Shown here piece by piece: positions 1,750-20,911 of a DNA stretch of 22,423 nt. This DNA comes from a virus. Within the stretch, counting starts at the first letter, position 1, and each line of letters begins with the position of its first letter. The notes under the pieces are model-generated. The model was not told the origin of the DNA, did not search any database, and saw nothing but the letters and a program-made list of their open reading frames with translations. The translations under genes and the position numbers were made by a program. The stretch spans positions 1-22,423 of the IMG/VR virus record IMGVR_UViG_3300009508_000069. One strand, given 5' to 3'.

Positions 1750-4700
1750 ATGTCAGAACTTGAAATACCTTCGGGAGATACTTTTACTTCAGAGTTTAAA
1801 CCTTTAGAAGTTGACGATAATCAAATGGTTCAAATGATCAACCTGTTTGAATTTGACGAAAATGGTGAACAACAGTCTCAAGATCAAATAACAAAAAACA
1901 TAGCTGAAGTTTTTATAAGTGAAGCAAAAGAAAAATATAATGTTCCAAACCTCACTTATCAAAGCCTTTTAACACCTGATTCTCCTTTTTTAACAAGTTT
2001 ATATAAAAAAGGAATTATACCCGAAGGAAGTACTTTTGGAGAAGACGAAGAGGGTTTAATCTCTCCTAATGAAAAAATAATTAATTTTCTTTCTACAGCT
2101 AATTTTAGAGAAAACCCTATTTTATCGGGGGCCTTAGATACCGCAGGTAGCGCAACAGGTTTTACCATTGGTGCTGTTAAAGGTGCTCAGATAGGATCTA
2201 AAGTTCCTGGTAAACTAAAGATACCCGCTATGATTACAACAGGTATGATAGGAGGGGTTTTAGGTAGCGAGGTGCTTGAAACAATTCAACAGTCTATTTT
2301 TGGAAAGCCCTCTGCTCGTTTGCCGTCTCAAAGATCTAAATACGAAGGTGGTGTAACTGGCATGAATGTAGCTAATTTTTTATCAGCTCCTTACATGTTA
2401 CCTAGATACATCCAAATGGGTTCTAGTCAAGTTTTAAAGAACTTACAAAAAAATGCAAAATTACGTTTTGATAAATTAGCTTTTGCAAATAAAGGTAAGT
2501 TCCGAGATAAAGCTTTAGAATCAATTATAAAAAAAGGCAAAGCACCTCTTGGTTTAAGATTTGAAGCAGGTGCTGAAAGATTTTTACAAGGTTTTATAGA
2601 CACCTCTAGAAAAAATCCTTTTCTTTATGCTTCAGGAGAACTTTTTTCAGCAGCTGGTTCAGGCACAGGTGCCACTATTTCTGAAGAGTTATATCCTGGA
2701 GAAGCTCTTCCAAGAGTGGGCTTTGAATTAGGATTAGGAGTTCCCTCTGCTTTAGTACCTCATTTAGCCTTATCTAATGTAATTAAAAAAAGTTATGGTG
2801 CTTTAAAAGATTTTAGAACTAAGGCAAAAGAAATAAATCCTGTGACAGGAGAAAAGTTTGGAGCTAAAGGAGCTATTGCAGAAAGTAAAGCAGCAGATTA
2901 TTTTAAACAAAGAAAATTAAGAACAAGTATTGACGGTCTTTTATCTCAGTTAGAAAAATATATGGATGACGGTGATATTAATTCTTTATTAAACACTTTA
3001 GAAGGTAGCTTCTTAAACTTAGATCCAAACTTAAAAAAAGTTATGGGAGAAAAAGGAACTAAAGAGTTAATACAATTAGTAAGTAAATCTTCAGGATTAA
3101 AATCAGGAAACCCTATTTTAATGGCTTACGAGGGTGCTTTAAATGCTCGTTATGATTTCATGGGTAATGAAGTTAATAGTAAATTTAGAGAAGCTACTAA
3201 CGGATTGCTTCAAATGATGCAAATATTAATCGGTACAGGGGATGATGCAGCCTTAAAAGTAGCTTCTGAAATAGAATATAGTTTAATGGGTTCTTCGGTT
3301 CAAGCAAACATAGACGGTAAAGTAAGTTCTTTACTAGCTGCTTTTGACAAAGTTAAAGGCAAAAACACTAAAGACAATGTACAATTAAGCGAAAAACTGT
3401 TTAGTTTGTTAAAAAACGAATACAAATTGTGGAGAACTCAAGAGCGGAAATTTTATGACGGTGTTCCTAATTATAACTTTGACGAAGGTTTTCAATTTAA
3501 AGATGAATCTGGAGAAATTATAGAAGATGGTTTTTCAAACTTTTTAGAAATTTTAACAGATCCTGACGTTCTTCCTGTTGATAGAAACTTTGGTCAAGCC
3601 CTGATGAGAAAACAAGGTTTTGGACCTCTTCTCAACTATGCCAATGACATGCGAATTAAATTAGGACTACCTGAAGAAGGCGCTTTAACTTTAGCAGACG
3701 ATGCGGCTTCCGCGGCTCCTATCACAAATAAAAATATTCAAAATTCTGAAATAAAATTAGCTAATATGGAAAGACCTAGTGTAACGGCTAGTTACAATAA
3801 TTATAAACAAACTATTTTAAATAGAATAGAAAACGAAACATACGAAGGTGCTACGGATGATCTTAGCATAGATAAAACTATTATAGATGAAATAGAAAAA
3901 ACCATACGCGTAGATCAACCTTTAAGAGGTCAAAATTATAATTACCAAAACAGGACTAAAGATAGAAGACAACTTATTCAATTTGTAAAAGAAAAAGTAA
4001 AACTTCAAACTTTAATTAATGCGGAACGATCTAAAAGATCTGCAACAGAAGTTGTGTCACAAGCAACGGATAGACCTGATTTAGGCTCTTTAACTTTAGA
4101 TGAAATGAGATTAGCCCGATCTAATGCTTTAGATTTAGCTGCAAATCTTAGAGGAGAAGGCAAACCTCAACTTGCTAACAGAGCGAGCGCTATGGCAAAA
4201 GCTATTCTTCTTGATATACAATCTATATCAGATGATAAGTTACCTGAACTAAAAAGAGCTAATAATTTTTCAAGATCAGGGAACGATGTTTTCACAAGAA
4301 CCTTTGTTGGAAAAGTATTAGCTAAAAACAAAGACGGTTCTCAAACTATACCTATAGAAACTATAGTAGATCAATTACAAGCTTCAAATAACAAAACTTA
4401 TCTTAGATTTGCTCAAATACAAGACGCGCATGACTTTATCAATACTAATAATTTAAGAGCTCCCGAAGATAAATTTGGAACTATGAAAAGTTACAGAAGT
4501 ACTTTGACAGGGATATTAAGAAACATAGCTTCCAACAAATCTATATTTAATGAAGAGACAGGGGCTGTAAATTCTAATGGTTTAAAAAAATGGATGACAA
4601 AAAACGAACCTTTATTAAATATTTTTCCTGCTTTAAGACGAGATTTATTAAATGCAGAAACCGCTAATAATCTTTTAAAAAATGTTAAAGATGAAACTAA

Positions 4701-6528
4701 GGAAACAAATAAGATTTTAGAATCAACTTTTAATTTTTCTAAGTTTGCGGATGTTGAAAACCCTTCTAAATATATTTCACAAATTATAAATAGCGACCAA
4801 CCCATAAAAAGTTTAAATAATATTTTAAATAATATTAAAAATTTAAAAACGCCTGACAAAAATTTAGGGCAATATACTAAAAAAGTAAAAACTCTTTCAG
4901 GTGAGTTAGAAGAAACAGCAACAGCAAACAAGGAAAATATTCTTAAAGGTTTTAAACAATCTGTTTTAGAATATGTTTTAGTAGGTTCGGGTAGTTCAGG
5001 AGCAAACTCTAGATTCAGTCCTAGCAGGGCTTACAGTCTTTTGTTTGATGATATTAAAACATCTGGTGGTGAGACACGACAGTCCTTAGCTAAATGGATG
5101 TTGTCTAGCGGAGTTGCTAATAATCAAGAAATAACAACATACAGAACACTTTTAGAACAAATGGGTAAATTTGAAGCTGCGGAAGCTTCAGGAAGTTTGG
5201 CAGATTTAGGAGAAGGTTCTGTCAATTCTATGTTTGATTTTTATTTAAGAGTTTCAGGATCTGCCATTGGTGCAAAAATGCAGAATTTAATACCTGGCAG
5301 CACTGGAGCAGGTCAATTAGTAGCCGCTTCAGCAGGTAGTAAATTGATGAGGAGACTTTTCCAAGAAATACCTGAAAGCATGAAATTGGATGCTATGGCC
5401 GCTATAATGCAAGACCCTCCTGCTTTAGCCAAATTATTAAGACAAGCTAAGGATGAAAAAGCTCAAAGAGGTAATGCTTCTTGGTTTAGAAAATTTTTTG
5501 AAAAATCAGGCATTTTAGCTAAAGGTAGTGGCATTAGAAGAACTATTCCATTAACACAAGAAGTAATAAAACCAGAGATAGATCCTTTTGAAATGTTAAA
5601 TCAAGAAGATAATACTCAACAGAGTTCGGTTGAACCGAGTATACAAATGGGTACTCCCACCACCCAAGTAGCCTCAAGTCAGCCATTTTTGAGCGGATTG
5701 AACGTCGCTCCCGCGGGAGGCGGTATCTCCTCCACCGCCTCCGCGCCTACCAATAGAGCTCAATATGCTTCGCTATTTCCTAATGACATAGTTTCAGGAA
5801 TGATACCTACAGCTACTATGGCTGACGGTGGTGCCGTACCTCCAAGAAATGTCGAGATAAAAGGACAACCTCATATGCTTGCGTATATTACGCCTCAAGA
5901 AGGTGGGATACTACAACTTTTAGGCGGGTCAGGTAAAGCGGGACCTATGGGTATTCCTAGTTTCTTCGCGGATGATGACAGTGATGAAGCTTCAGAAGTT
6001 AGTGAACACTCTGAGGATGCGGCAGCCGGTACAGGTGGCCCCAGCTCAGGTGATATGGGTCTAGACGATAGTATTGCAGACATGGCTAATGCTATGGCAG
6101 GACACACAGCAGGAACAACGGGCTATTCAGATGTACAAGGATCTATTAACTATGCCCCCGTAGGAAAAATAGGTTTTGATCCTTTTGGTTTAAGAAATAA
6201 AATGAACCAACATGCTCGAAACTCTTTGTCTAGAGGTGTACAACCTAGTTTTACTACAGATACCAAGGGTAATGTTACGTCTGTTACAGGACCTGGAGGT
6301 CCTTCTTCAGGAATGCCAGGTATAGGTAGTTTACTATCTATGATTGGAACTAATATGGGTGTTACGACTACCACAGGATATAATCAAAATACAAATAATC
6401 CAAATGACAACGGTAATGACAATGAGTTAATTCGTAGAATACAACCTATTACCCCTCAACAGCAATATAGAACAGCTTTAAATCTGTACAATCAAAACCC
6501 TAATCGATACACATTAAGGACTAGATAA
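1750..6528 (+). CDS. Giant (1592 aa) virion protein, possible internal/ejection protein
   Basis: An AGAGGG ribosome binding site precedes the ATG. The N-terminus is acidic. Residues about 126-173 form a Gly/Ala-rich hydrophobic stretch with glycine-zipper spacing (GAVKGAQIG, MIGGVLG) that could insert into membrane. A long Lys/Glu-rich, predominantly helical middle (about 400-1200) follows. A second small-residue-rich patch precedes a low-complexity tail (about 1290-1592) rich in Gly, Pro, Ser and Asn. The tail includes MADGGAVPPRN at 1357 and a KGQPHMLAYITP segment, which I recognise as typical of marine phage virion proteins. Length, membrane-active-looking segment and position before the endolysin suggest an internal virion (DNA ejection) protein. 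A tail or structural scaffold is the alternative. No peptidoglycan hydrolase motif is visible. The gene is visibly more AT-rich than the replication genes. Confidence 0.65.
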   Translation: MSELEIPSGDTFTSEFKPLEVDDNQMVQMINLFEFDENGEQQSQDQITKNIAEVFISEAKEKYNVPNLTYQSLLTPDSPFLTSLYKKGIIPEGSTFGEDEEGLISPNEKIINFLSTANFRENPILSGALDTAGSATGFTIGAVKGAQIGSKVPGKLKIPAMITTGMIGGVLGSEVLETIQQSIFGKPSARLPSQRSKYEGGVTGMNVANFLSAPYMLPRYIQMGSSQVLKNLQKNAKLRFDKLAFANKGKFRDKALESIIKKGKAPLGLRFEAGAERFLQGFIDTSRKNPFLYASGELFSAAGSGTGATISEELYPGEALPRVGFELGLGVPSALVPHLALSNVIKKSYGALKDFRTKAKEINPVTGEKFGAKGAIAESKAADYFKQRKLRTSIDGLLSQLEKYMDDGDINSLLNTLEGSFLNLDPNLKKVMGEKGTKELIQLVSKSSGLKSGNPILMAYEGALNARYDFMGNEVNSKFREATNGLLQMMQILIGTGDDAALKVASEIEYSLMGSSVQANIDGKVSSLLAAFDKVKGKNTKDNVQLSEKLFSLLKNEYKLWRTQERKFYDGVPNYNFDEGFQFKDESGEIIEDGFSNFLEILTDPDVLPVDRNFGQALMRKQGFGPLLNYANDMRIKLGLPEEGALTLADDAASAAPITNKNIQNSEIKLANMERPSVTASYNNYKQTILNRIENETYEGATDDLSIDKTIIDEIEKTIRVDQPLRGQNYNYQNRTKDRRQLIQFVKEKVKLQTLINAERSKRSATEVVSQATDRPDLGSLTLDEMRLARSNALDLAANLRGEGKPQLANRASAMAKAILLDIQSISDDKLPELKRANNFSRSGNDVFTRTFVGKVLAKNKDGSQTIPIETIVDQLQASNNKTYLRFAQIQDAHDFINTNNLRAPEDKFGTMKSYRSTLTGILRNIASNKSIFNEETGAVNSNGLKKWMTKNEPLLNIFPALRRDLLNAETANNLLKNVKDETKETNKILESTFNFSKFADVENPSKYISQIINSDQPIKSLNNILNNIKNLKTPDKNLGQYTKKVKTLSGELEETATANKENILKGFKQSVLEYVLVGSGSSGANSRFSPSRAYSLLFDDIKTSGGETRQSLAKWMLSSGVANNQEITTYRTLLEQMGKFEAAEASGSLADLGEGSVNSMFDFYLRVSGSAIGAKMQNLIPGSTGAGQLVAASAGSKLMRRLFQEIPESMKLDAMAAIMQDPPALAKLLRQAKDEKAQRGNASWFRKFFEKSGILAKGSGIRRTIPLTQEVIKPEIDPFEMLNQEDNTQQSSVEPSIQMGTPTTQVASSQPFLSGLNVAPAGGGISSTASAPTNRAQYASLFPNDIVSGMIPTATMADGGAVPPRNVEIKGQPHMLAYITPQEGGILQLLGGSGKAGPMGIPSFFADDDSDEASEVSEHSEDAAAGTGGPSSGDMGLDDSIADMANAMAGHTAGTTGYSDVQGSINYAPVGKIGFDPFGLRNKMNQHARNSLSRGVQPSFTTDTKGNVTSVTGPGGPSSGMPGIGSLLSMIGTNMGVTTTTGYNQNTNNPNDNGNDNELIRRIQPITPQQQYRTALNLYNQNPNRYTLRTR
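5716..5742 (+). repeat. GC-rich 9-bp perfect inverted repeat inside the virion gene
   Basis: GGAGGCGGT (5716-5724) and ACCGCCTCC (5734-5742) are perfect inverted copies separated by 9 nt. They lie in a short GC-rich island (about 5700-5745) within an otherwise AT-rich gene. The island encodes the Ala/Gly/Ser linker ahead of the low-complexity tail. It would form a strong mRNA hairpin, but it may only reflect Gly/Ser/Ala codon choice. Confidence 0.5.
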
Positions 6529-18823: not shown

Positions 18824-19116
18824 TGCCAAAAAATTGTCTGGATTACTGCAAAGAATGCGGAATAAAACTTAAAAATACTAAACATATTAGGACACATCCC
18901 AAATTGTGTCCTGATTGCCGAGGATATAATTCAACTTTAAACCCCAGCGTCAGAGAAGTTTTTAACCAAATGCAAAAAAACCCAACAACTCCGGCTGACG
19001 ATGAGCTGTGGTTTGAAGATTGTCCCAAAGCCGTCAAAGAACTCGAGTACGGCCGTGTGTCCAGAAAGACTAACGTAGCTCCCATAGAAACAACTCTTAG
19101 TGATTTGATTATATGA
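18823..19116 (+). CDS. Small zinc-finger-like protein
   Basis: 97 aa. CKECGIK (Cys9, Cys12) and LCPDCRG (Cys29, Cys32) form a C-x2-C-x16-C-x2-C zinc-ribbon pattern with His-rich linker residues between. The rest (about 35-97) is polar with a further Cys (EDCPKAV) and lacks recognised domains. Probable nucleic-acid-binding or adaptor protein. It begins with TAATG overlap and ends with ATGA overlap, so it is part of a continuous coupled string from 17313 to 19757. Confidence 0.7.
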   Translation: MPKNCLDYCKECGIKLKNTKHIRTHPKLCPDCRGYNSTLNPSVREVFNQMQKNPTTPADDELWFEDCPKAVKELEYGRVSRKTNVAPIETTLSDLII

Positions 19117-19757
19117 GTGAGCTGATATGTAACCTTCCCGCTGTTAAAGTTAAAGTCAGGCGGGAATATTTAAGGGATTTAGAAGATGGATTTGGTGAGT
19201 TTGTCGATGGGATCTGGGTCTCATGTAAATCTATTCCTGGAAGAGCATTTTATTTTGAGACTTATCTGCCTGAGTACGGCGCTCTGTATGACAAGTTGCC
19301 TATTAGCGCGTTCCTATCTAGAGCTGAAATACCCAATCCGGACTTACCTCTTAATAATCTGCAGTTCTGGAACGCTATGGATTATGGTATCGTGGCTGTT
19401 CATAAACAATTCATCGGTTCAATGGATTTTGAGGTGCTAACCAGAGACTTTGGTCTCCAAAAAGGTACTTATGTAGCTACCCTAGATAATTACCACGCCG
19501 ATATTAACGCTATAGATTATAGTACAGCTGAAACACCAGATGAACATAAATCTTTTAATCTACTGGAATTGGATAATGGCCAGTATTGCGTCTATCCTAA
19601 TAATAGAATGAGAGTTTACGATAATAGTCTCACGCCTCACGAGCCAAAGAAGCCGGACTTCAAAGTTAGTACTATTGAGTACCAAGTCGAGAATGGTAAC
19701 ACTACAAGACTTGGCGATACTGACGAATACTTCTGGAAAACTAAACAAGAACAATAG
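19113..19757 (+). CDS. Conserved phage protein, YDKLPISAF type
   Basis: 214 aa. Features VRREYLRDLEDGFGEF, SIPGRAFYFETYLPEY, ALYDKLPISAFLS and LPLNNLQFWNAMDYG, a set I recognise from uncharacterised phage and prophage proteins (often annotated hypothetical). No catalytic motif or membrane segment is evident. A mixed alpha/beta fold is likely. It is the last gene of the P2 operon and overlaps the zinc-finger gene by ATGA. After it the DNA is non-coding up to terS. Function unknown. Confidence 0.7.
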   Translation: MSELICNLPAVKVKVRREYLRDLEDGFGEFVDGIWVSCKSIPGRAFYFETYLPEYGALYDKLPISAFLSRAEIPNPDLPLNNLQFWNAMDYGIVAVHKQFIGSMDFEVLTRDFGLQKGTYVATLDNYHADINAIDYSTAETPDEHKSFNLLELDNGQYCVYPNNRMRVYDNSLTPHEPKKPDFKVSTIEYQVENGNTTRLGDTDEYFWKTKQEQ

Positions 19758-19822
19758 TTACATTTGTTAATCTCCTTTATATATAGAGCTGAAAATAAAA
19801 AAAATATTTTTTGTTAAATATA

Positions 19823-19849
19823 GGTGTAACTGGTGTAACTTATGTAACT
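19823..19849 (+). repeat. Three tandem 9-bp repeats (iteron-like)
   Basis: GGTGTAACT at 19823-19831 and 19832-19840, then TATGTAACT at 19841-19849: two exact copies and one differing at two positions, all in phase. Non-coding DNA upstream of the terminase gene. Each holds a GTAAC core shared with the inverted boxes at 19884-19924. Candidate binding array for TerS, an initiator or a repressor. Confidence 0.75.
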
Positions 19850-19883
19850 CGTATCTGTAATCGTTAGTACATAAGGATTCTAT

Positions 19884-19924
19884 GGTTACATATTTGGTTA
19901 CATATTTAATTTCAAATATGTAAC
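19884..19924 (+). repeat. Tandem 12-bp repeat plus 11-bp palindrome
   Basis: GGTTACATATTT occurs twice in tandem (19884-19895, 19896-19907), followed by an inverted copy AAATATGTAAC (19914-19924). GTTACATATTT (19897-19907) and that copy form a perfect 11-bp inverted repeat with a 6-nt spacer. Same GTAAC/GTTAC core as the 9-bp array upstream. The rest of the 19758-20007 gap is AT-rich, with an AT palindrome near 19797-19812. Confidence 0.75.
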
Positions 19925-20007
19925 TTTACAATATTAGATCGATTTTGGCTTTACTAAGGGCTAAAAAGTTTTTTGCAAAAAAATATTTTCTGGTGTATAT
20001 ATATAGG

Positions 20008-20589
20008 ATGAATAACTTAAAGCCTTTGAAAAAGGGTCGGGGAAGACCAAAAGCTGATCTGCATAGTAAGCTTACTAGGAAACAAGAACGCTTTGTAAAA
20101 GAGATTGTTTCTAATGATGGGATGATAACTCATAGAGAAGCTGCGATTAATGCGGGATACCCAGCATCTTCAGCTCACACTAGAGCTTATGAAATGATGA
20201 ACCCTCAAATCTGTCCACATATCTGTCGAGCTATTCAAGCTTATCGAGATGAGTTGGACGAGAAATATGGCATTACTTTTAAAAGACATTTACGAGATTT
20301 ACAAAGAATTAGAGATATGGCTATAGAAAACGGGGCATATTCAGCCGCAGTTCAAGCTGAGTATAGAAGAGGCCAAGCTAATGGTAATATCTATATTAAC
20401 AAATCTGAAATCCGTCACGGGACTATAGATAGTATGTCTAAGGATGAAGTCCTGAAAGCTTTAAAAGAGTTGAGACAAAATGAACCGAGATACGCTGAAG
20501 AAGTTATTGAACACGAGGACAACAAATCCGATAAAGAAGGAAGCGGGTCTGTACGAACAATTAAAGAGAGCCTCACTACAATACAGTAA
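20008..20589 (+). CDS. terS: Terminase small subunit
   Basis: 193 aa from the ATG at 20008. The frame reads back to a TTG at 19945, but the extra residues look like untranslated AT-rich leader, while MNNLKPLKKGRGRPKADL is a natural start. A basic N-terminus is followed by LTRKQERFVKEIV, REAAINAGYPASSAHTRAYEM and AIENGAYSAAVQAEYRRGQANG, and a C-terminal SMSKDEVLKALKEL helix; this matches the Terminase_2 (P27/TerS-like) pattern with an N-terminal helix-turn-helix for DNA recognition. It would recognise the packaging site and load the large subunit. The repeats just upstream (19823-19924) are a plausible site. The large subunit is not in the window. The 3' 110 nt overlap the next gene. Confidence 0.82.
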   Translation: MNNLKPLKKGRGRPKADLHSKLTRKQERFVKEIVSNDGMITHREAAINAGYPASSAHTRAYEMMNPQICPHICRAIQAYRDELDEKYGITFKRHLRDLQRIRDMAIENGAYSAAVQAEYRRGQANGNIYINKSEIRHGTIDSMSKDEVLKALKELRQNEPRYAEEVIEHEDNKSDKEGSGSVRTIKESLTTIQ

Positions 20590-20911
20590 ACCCATAAGAC
20601 TTAGTAGAATAGAAAACTGGATGACCCTTGGCCTTCCGGATTTACTTATTTGTGATCACAATCATAAATTTCATTTTGTAGAATTGAAATATGTAAAGTT
20701 TAATGCCGTCAATCTAAGCCCTCAACAAATTAGTTGGATTACCCTACATAAGGGAGCTTCCGTTTGGATATTAGTTAAAAGCACTAAAGGCCTTCACCTT
20801 TATAGAGCTGACCAAGCCATAGAGCTGAAAGAACAAGGAATAAAATTAGAGCCACATTTCTTTTGTCCTGAGCCTTTTGACTGGCAAAAAACTTTTGACT
20901 TGATCTTATAG
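20480..20911 (+). CDS. PD-(D/E)XK-type nuclease, VRR-NUC-like
   Basis: 143 aa. IENWMTLGLPDLLI followed by HFVELKYVKFNAVNLSPQQISWITLHKGASVWILVK gives the GxPD...ELK core of small phage PD-(D/E)XK enzymes, with Glu/Lys of the ExK motif in VELKY. Such proteins may resolve recombination junctions or degrade DNA; a VRR-NUC-like or Holliday-junction nuclease is the best guess. It starts inside terS in another frame and shares 110 nt with it. The only in-frame ATG has a weak site (a purine-rich AAAGAG upstream). The nuclease core begins at about residue 43, so the N-terminal 42 residues could be an extension. Confidence 0.75.
   Translation: MNRDTLKKLLNTRTTNPIKKEAGLYEQLKRASLQYSKPIRLSRIENWMTLGLPDLLICDHNHKFHFVELKYVKFNAVNLSPQQISWITLHKGASVWILVKSTKGLHLYRADQAIELKEQGIKLEPHFFCPEPFDWQKTFDLIL

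Follow-up and report, generated by a model that had tools for sequence, protein, structure and literature searches.

The window, that is, the whole stretch of DNA analyzed (virus record IMGVR_UViG_3300009508_000069; 22,423 bp, linear, 38% G+C), carries at its terminase small-subunit gene (terS) a unit of about 235 bp (19773-20008) that is bounded by 25-bp inverted repeats. Within this element, which also contains AT tracts, three direct boxes at 9-bp spacing are followed by a core of ~35 bp, two reverse boxes at 12-bp spacing, and a last direct box. Judging from the sequence, there is about an even chance that it represents a pac-type packaging-initiation site, bound by the small terminase subunit (TerS) in a family of abundant aquatic phages. 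The earlier note on this DNA had offered a pac/cos site, an iteron origin, or an operator, a proposal that finds partial support, with pac favored by the linkage to terS, the uniqueness of the site, its polarity, the arrangement of the boxes in two groups on either side of a variable core, and the SF6/SPP1-type domain of TerS.

Architecture of the element

Seven GTWAC pentamers are found in this segment of the window, starting at positions 19757, 19826, 19835, 19844, 19885, 19897, and 19920. The earlier count of seven GTAAC/GTTAC boxes in 168 bp was right, but not their wholly non-coding location: box 1 (GTTAC, minus strand, 19757-19761) begins at the upstream gene's stop codon. This box is missing from several relatives and is probably outside the unit. 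Boxes 2, 3, and 4 are GTAAC copies on the plus strand (19826-19830, 19835-19839, and 19844-19848), each of the last two lying 9 bp past the preceding one, although box 4 is placed at 8 bp in some relatives. They belong to a series formed by two exact copies of GGTGTAACT and an in-phase TATGTAACT; hence, of the three in-phase 9-bp repeats first described, the phase is correct, while only two copies are exact and the coordinates shift by one base. Beyond the core lie box 5 (GTTAC, minus strand, 19885-19889) and, 12 bp past it, box 6 (GTTAC, minus strand, 19897-19901), within a 12-bp pair of TGGTTACATATT (19883-19894 and 19895-19906) that had already been noticed with a one-base shift. Box 7 (GTAAC, plus strand, 19920-19924) closes the array and, like boxes 2-6, is recognized by both sequence and conservation. 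A cryptic GTAAT box (plus strand, 19857-19861) reads GTAAC in many relatives; its first four bases are kept and the fifth is variable.

The array is indeed too orderly for background. The intergenic region (19758-20007) holds six boxes, compared with a mean of 0.64 in dinucleotide shuffles, and six were reached in none of 2,000 shuffles. In addition, GTTACA is the top 6-mer when both strands are counted, with 6 copies (mean of 2.2 and maximum of 4 in shuffles). The window also contains an exact inverted pair, GTTACATATTT/AAATATGTAAC, with arms of 11 nt and a gap of 6 nt. The 11-bp palindrome reported before is therefore exact here, but it is not kept in relatives, where GTWAC alone is. A hairpin RNA originating from this palindrome was considered and rejected, as its arms are not conserved and no Rfam match was obtained.

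The extent initially assigned to the element (19757-19924) had missed both the GTAAY box at 19857 and the enclosing inverted repeats. The left arm, TCCTTTATATATAGAGCTGAAAATA (19773-19797), is 93% conserved and 84% complementary to the right arm (19984-20008), which has one full match in the whole window; the repeat scores 16.2, versus a shuffle maximum of 12.4. Next to the left arm, the sequence reveals an AT tract (19798-19822; 91% conserved) that could possibly act as a bend or unwinding element. The core that separates the left and right box groups (19849-19884) is poorly conserved (about 77%) and is a possible, putative cleavage region. A second AT tract, AAAAAGTTTTTTGCAAAAAAATATTTT (19963-19989), is 97% conserved over 19963-19983, and the right arm may double as the predicted -10 region of terS.

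The gene terS (20008-20589, plus strand) was assigned by matches to phrog_51 (4e-14) and to Pfam Terminase_2 (PF03592), and its product shows an N-terminal helix-turn-helix of the SF6/SPP1 type. The family profile matches the DNA-binding domains of SF6 TerS (4zc3, 3zqp, and 2cmp; 2.5e-7 to 5.7e-7). An AlphaFold2 model with an overall pLDDT of 64, in which the helix-turn-helix alone is confidently predicted (about 83-93 in blocks 21-80), retrieved the same SF6 structures in Foldseek with a probability of 1.0 but weak E-values (0.12-0.13). The end of terS is overlapped by a gene for a VRR-NUC-like nuclease (20480-20911, plus strand), whose Pfam match is below the curated cut-off, while the upstream gene (19113-19757) matches phrog_3704 (annotated as ferredoxin). 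Elsewhere in the window, a 1,592-aa protein (1750-6528) yielded no PHROG match.

Conservation and linkage to terS

In 54 distinct elements located upstream of terS in close relatives, boxes 2-7 reach an average conservation of 97%, whereas the spacers stay at 80% (p=1.5e-4 by permutation). It had been stated that the absence of the boxes from relatives with the same terS would refute the proposal; the boxes are present there. One of these relatives (L011) mixes GTAAC and GTAAT, though its TerS is 97% identical to that of the window; the last base of the box is thus tolerant, and this mixture counts against the pac reading. In phages of the DSL-LC04 type, whose TerS is ~50% identical, the same box order is found with GTAAT as the box; the most complete arrays have it at offsets of 0, 9, 17, about 49, about 60, and about 81. 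Some variants of this type are devoid of one or more boxes, and the tandem pair is absent in L227-L237 (the nearest to DSL-LC04 itself) and in L239-L242. Between the DSL-type element and the terS downstream of it lie one or two small genes. The HTVC023P pelagiphage group (TerS ~30% identical) exhibits CYRGGAA boxes in a similar layout directly before terS. The box thus differs between groups (GTAAC, GTAAT, or CYRGGAA) whereas its arrangement and location are retained, as would be expected if the binder were encoded by the phage.

Inverted arms also enclose the array in DSL-LC04 and HTVC023P, and neither genome holds a comparable arm copy elsewhere. Most arms of the DSL-type relatives span 27-52 bp and score about 20-28, versus shuffled maxima of about 10-16, with weak arms in a few of them (L239, L280); scores in window-type phages are 14-17. 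Two long relatives, one of 59,971 bp and one of 58,648 bp whose ends overlap by 77 bp, each contain a single dense GTWAC cluster, namely the array, with 7 and 9 boxes, the next best clusters having 4 and 3. These two genomes of ~59-60 kb therefore present one site each, as is characteristic of pac.

A first, loose pattern scan was discarded as too unspecific, since many chance matches were expected. A scan of viral contigs based on the architecture only revealed at least 86 sites in at least 80 loci. Among the matches listed, 40 of 86 sites are followed, on the same strand and within about 500 bp, by a related terS, while a terS was found downstream on the opposite strand in none, upstream on the same strand in none, and upstream on the opposite strand in one. 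Fifteen of the other sites listed fall within long reading frames, probably by chance. One group of sites precedes a terS of the unrelated family PF16677, and in another contig (L546) the array is ahead of a terS next to terL that is Terminase_2-like, as judged by its sequence. A pac site usually, although not obligatorily, lies within or beside the gene for the small terminase subunit, and such a location is seen here, with L534 and the HTVC027P group as exceptions that count against the pac reading. In the former (L534:5675-10334), terS lies directly before terL and the GTAAC array is ~4.3 kb upstream, by a nuclease-like gene, so that both are uncoupled. In HTVC027P-type phages (TerS ~35% identical), no GTWAC or CYRGGAA array was found near terS. 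The conserved polarity with respect to terS could derive in part from co-inheritance.

A link to the upstream gene was also considered and rejected, as most of the homologues checked are devoid of the array. Genes similar to this phrog_3704-like gene are widespread without it; in L654 and L658, the same gene is present and the array appears several hundred bp further on. These data indicate that the array travels with terS. The upstream sequence differs at other terS loci, and in many of them the element is abutted by the end of another gene or of a terminator-like hairpin, as if its left edge were a recombination boundary.

Proposed packaging role and alternative functions

In the proposed packaging mechanism, oligomeric TerS would bind the left boxes (19826-19861) and the right boxes (19885-19924) through its helix-turn-helix domains, for which profile and structure matches provide the specific DNA-binding domain expected of a pac-binding protein. 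Bending of the DNA would be helped by the AT tracts, and TerL would then cut in or near the core, so that packaging would proceed in the direction of terS, terL, and the structural genes. In the window type, this binding of TerS could also damp transcription of terS, since the right arm sits at the expected terS promoter. Contig ends fall inside the element in 9 of 55 cases, versus 4.3 expected (p=0.026), with no sharp position, and in 7 of 30 for the HTVC023P type; this enrichment may be explained by the hypervariable upstream sequence.

The main rival to pac is an origin of replication, a possible but doubtful reading in which the boxes would be iterons for a phage initiator (e.g., an AEP-type primase), the AT tracts would melt first, and the inverted repeats would delimit the origin. 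Consistent with it are the tandem repeats of ~9 bp beside AT-rich DNA, the AEP-TOTE primase with a PriCT-like stretch encoded by the phage, the IHF-consensus cores of the PF16677 group and of some DSL-type relatives, and the DnaA boxes of one subgroup (L289, also L287), where four perfect copies (TGTGGATAA) occur about 74-169 bp upstream of box 1 of the array. Bacterial genomes also contain similar GTAAC arrays, which follow large genes, of the DUF927 type or similar, at a distance of 110-250 bp. Such tandem arrays were observed at L637:5679, L639:4677, L640:7632, and L647:5193, with DUF927 in L639 and L640, and no terS was seen at these loci. Their position and this lack of a visible terS suggest a role in replication, and they may be replication origins of prophages or islands; the IHF-like core that they exhibit is a product of selection, because the search pattern demanded it. 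On the other hand, among the phages examined it is terS, and not replication genes, that the array consistently accompanies, and an origin does not require the 40:0 orientation bias to terS recorded among the matches listed. Moreover, the element of the window contains no IHF site, a search for DnaA boxes near its array found none, and the GC skew does not change sign at the site, a result that is not decisive.

An operator or late promoter, at which a phage regulator (possibly TerS itself) would bind the boxes to control terS and the late operon, is unlikely. The element is directly ahead of terS, a weak promoter-like pair (TTGCAA-17-TATATA) ends beside the terS start of the window, and TTGAAA-17-TATATA is present in L379/L078. 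As a parallel, the title of a work cited in PMC6316719 states that the SPP1 terminase represses its own synthesis. However, no promoter at this place of the window exceeds the scan threshold, and the two-sided boxes and enclosing inverted repeats are more than an operator needs. Furthermore, to judge from predicted promoters, not every relative has its boxes where they could act on the terS promoter. Several DSL-type elements precede one or two small genes and a promoter-like site that is separate from them, and several of these phages have a better sigma-70 match (TTGACA/TTGACT-17-TATACT) downstream of the element, at least about 100 bp from the nearest box, which makes an operator less probable as an explanation for the whole family.

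It is very improbable that the inverted repeats form a long RNA stem or a regulatory RNA. The arms vary between phages yet remain complementary within each phage in two of three sets, in which they match better within than across phages (p=0.004 and p<0.0001). Nevertheless, the HTVC023P-type set shows no within-phage excess (p=0.39), an Rfam search gave no match, and conservation resides in GTWAC boxes of both orientations and not in the internal palindrome. Regarding recombination, the attP sites of tyrosine recombinases hold arm-type boxes around a core, a layout that the element resembles. An attP-like function is unlikely in the extreme, as the tyrosine-integrase domain Phage_integrase (PF00589) was detected in all 14 control genomes but in none of six relatives with long or complete genomes, and HTVC027P, a phage of the HTVC023P type, has been described as lytic (PMC12753301).

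Relation to known systems and other arrays

In P1, the pac site lies at the gene for the small terminase subunit and comprises about 160 bp, its seven short repeats forming two groups between which the cut is made; these repeats are Dam-methylated TGATC hexamers. The element shares with it the two groups of repeats and the location, but the TerS of P1 is unrelated and its boxes differ, being Dam-methylated TGATC. In lambda cosB, small-terminase boxes (R1-R2-R3) and an IHF site are arranged around a bend. The candidate element likewise has boxes around a putative bend, whereas it is not known to have a cosN, and its IHF consensus is not above chance: the best match between the box groups of the window has two mismatches, as in shuffles. 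The IHF site expected of a cosB thus appears only in some relatives, and a cosB model centered on IHF was rejected, given that IHF cores occur in the PF16677 group and some DSL-type phages and are absent in the window. Iteron origins of phages and plasmids are built from tandem short repeats, AT-rich flanks, and inverted repeats, all of which are found in the element; unlike them, it adjoins terS with constant polarity, and that of the window holds no DnaA box.

The TerS of SPP1 binds pacL and pacR, which flank the cut region pacC; this pac site overlaps with the start of terS and with its promoters (PMC6316719). The similarities with SPP1/SF6 include a homologous DNA-binding domain in TerS (gp1), a site that adjoins or overlaps the terS start, and two binding regions around a core (PMC6316719), binding and cutting being predicted in our case. 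The enclosing inverted repeats and the GTAAY layout are those of the present element, a distinction drawn at the level of architecture.

It is also conceivable, though less likely than not, that a composite element bounded by inverted repeats, in which the box varies by clade and the layout is fixed, is common to several large groups of aquatic phages, and perhaps to different terminase families, as a previously undescribed, portable start signal for packaging (or packaging and replication). A DNA-level search of isolated phages gave no match to the element, and no description of a matching one was found in a literature search carried out mostly without subscription papers. A conserved, recognizable layout would allow packaging starts to be predicted from sequence and would aid the orientation of uncultured genomes, while the TerS domains and their boxes (GTAAC, GTAAT, and CYRGGAA) would constitute natural pairs to study the evolution of TerS specificity.

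Other arrangements were observed near terS. In L543 (241-470), as in L561, L578, L524, and L579, pattern matches delineate paired GTAAC arrays in opposite orientation, ~117 bp apart; the pair of L543 is ~230 bp ahead of a PF16677 (P22 gp3-type) terS, and its forward array has a core that includes an IHF consensus. HTVC027P-type phages exhibit instead AAGCTTG-like heptad repeats. In HTVC027P itself (L209:11090-11300), heptad CAAGC/GCTTG repeats are located ~700-900 bp before terS, and similar ones appear near terS in many of its relatives.
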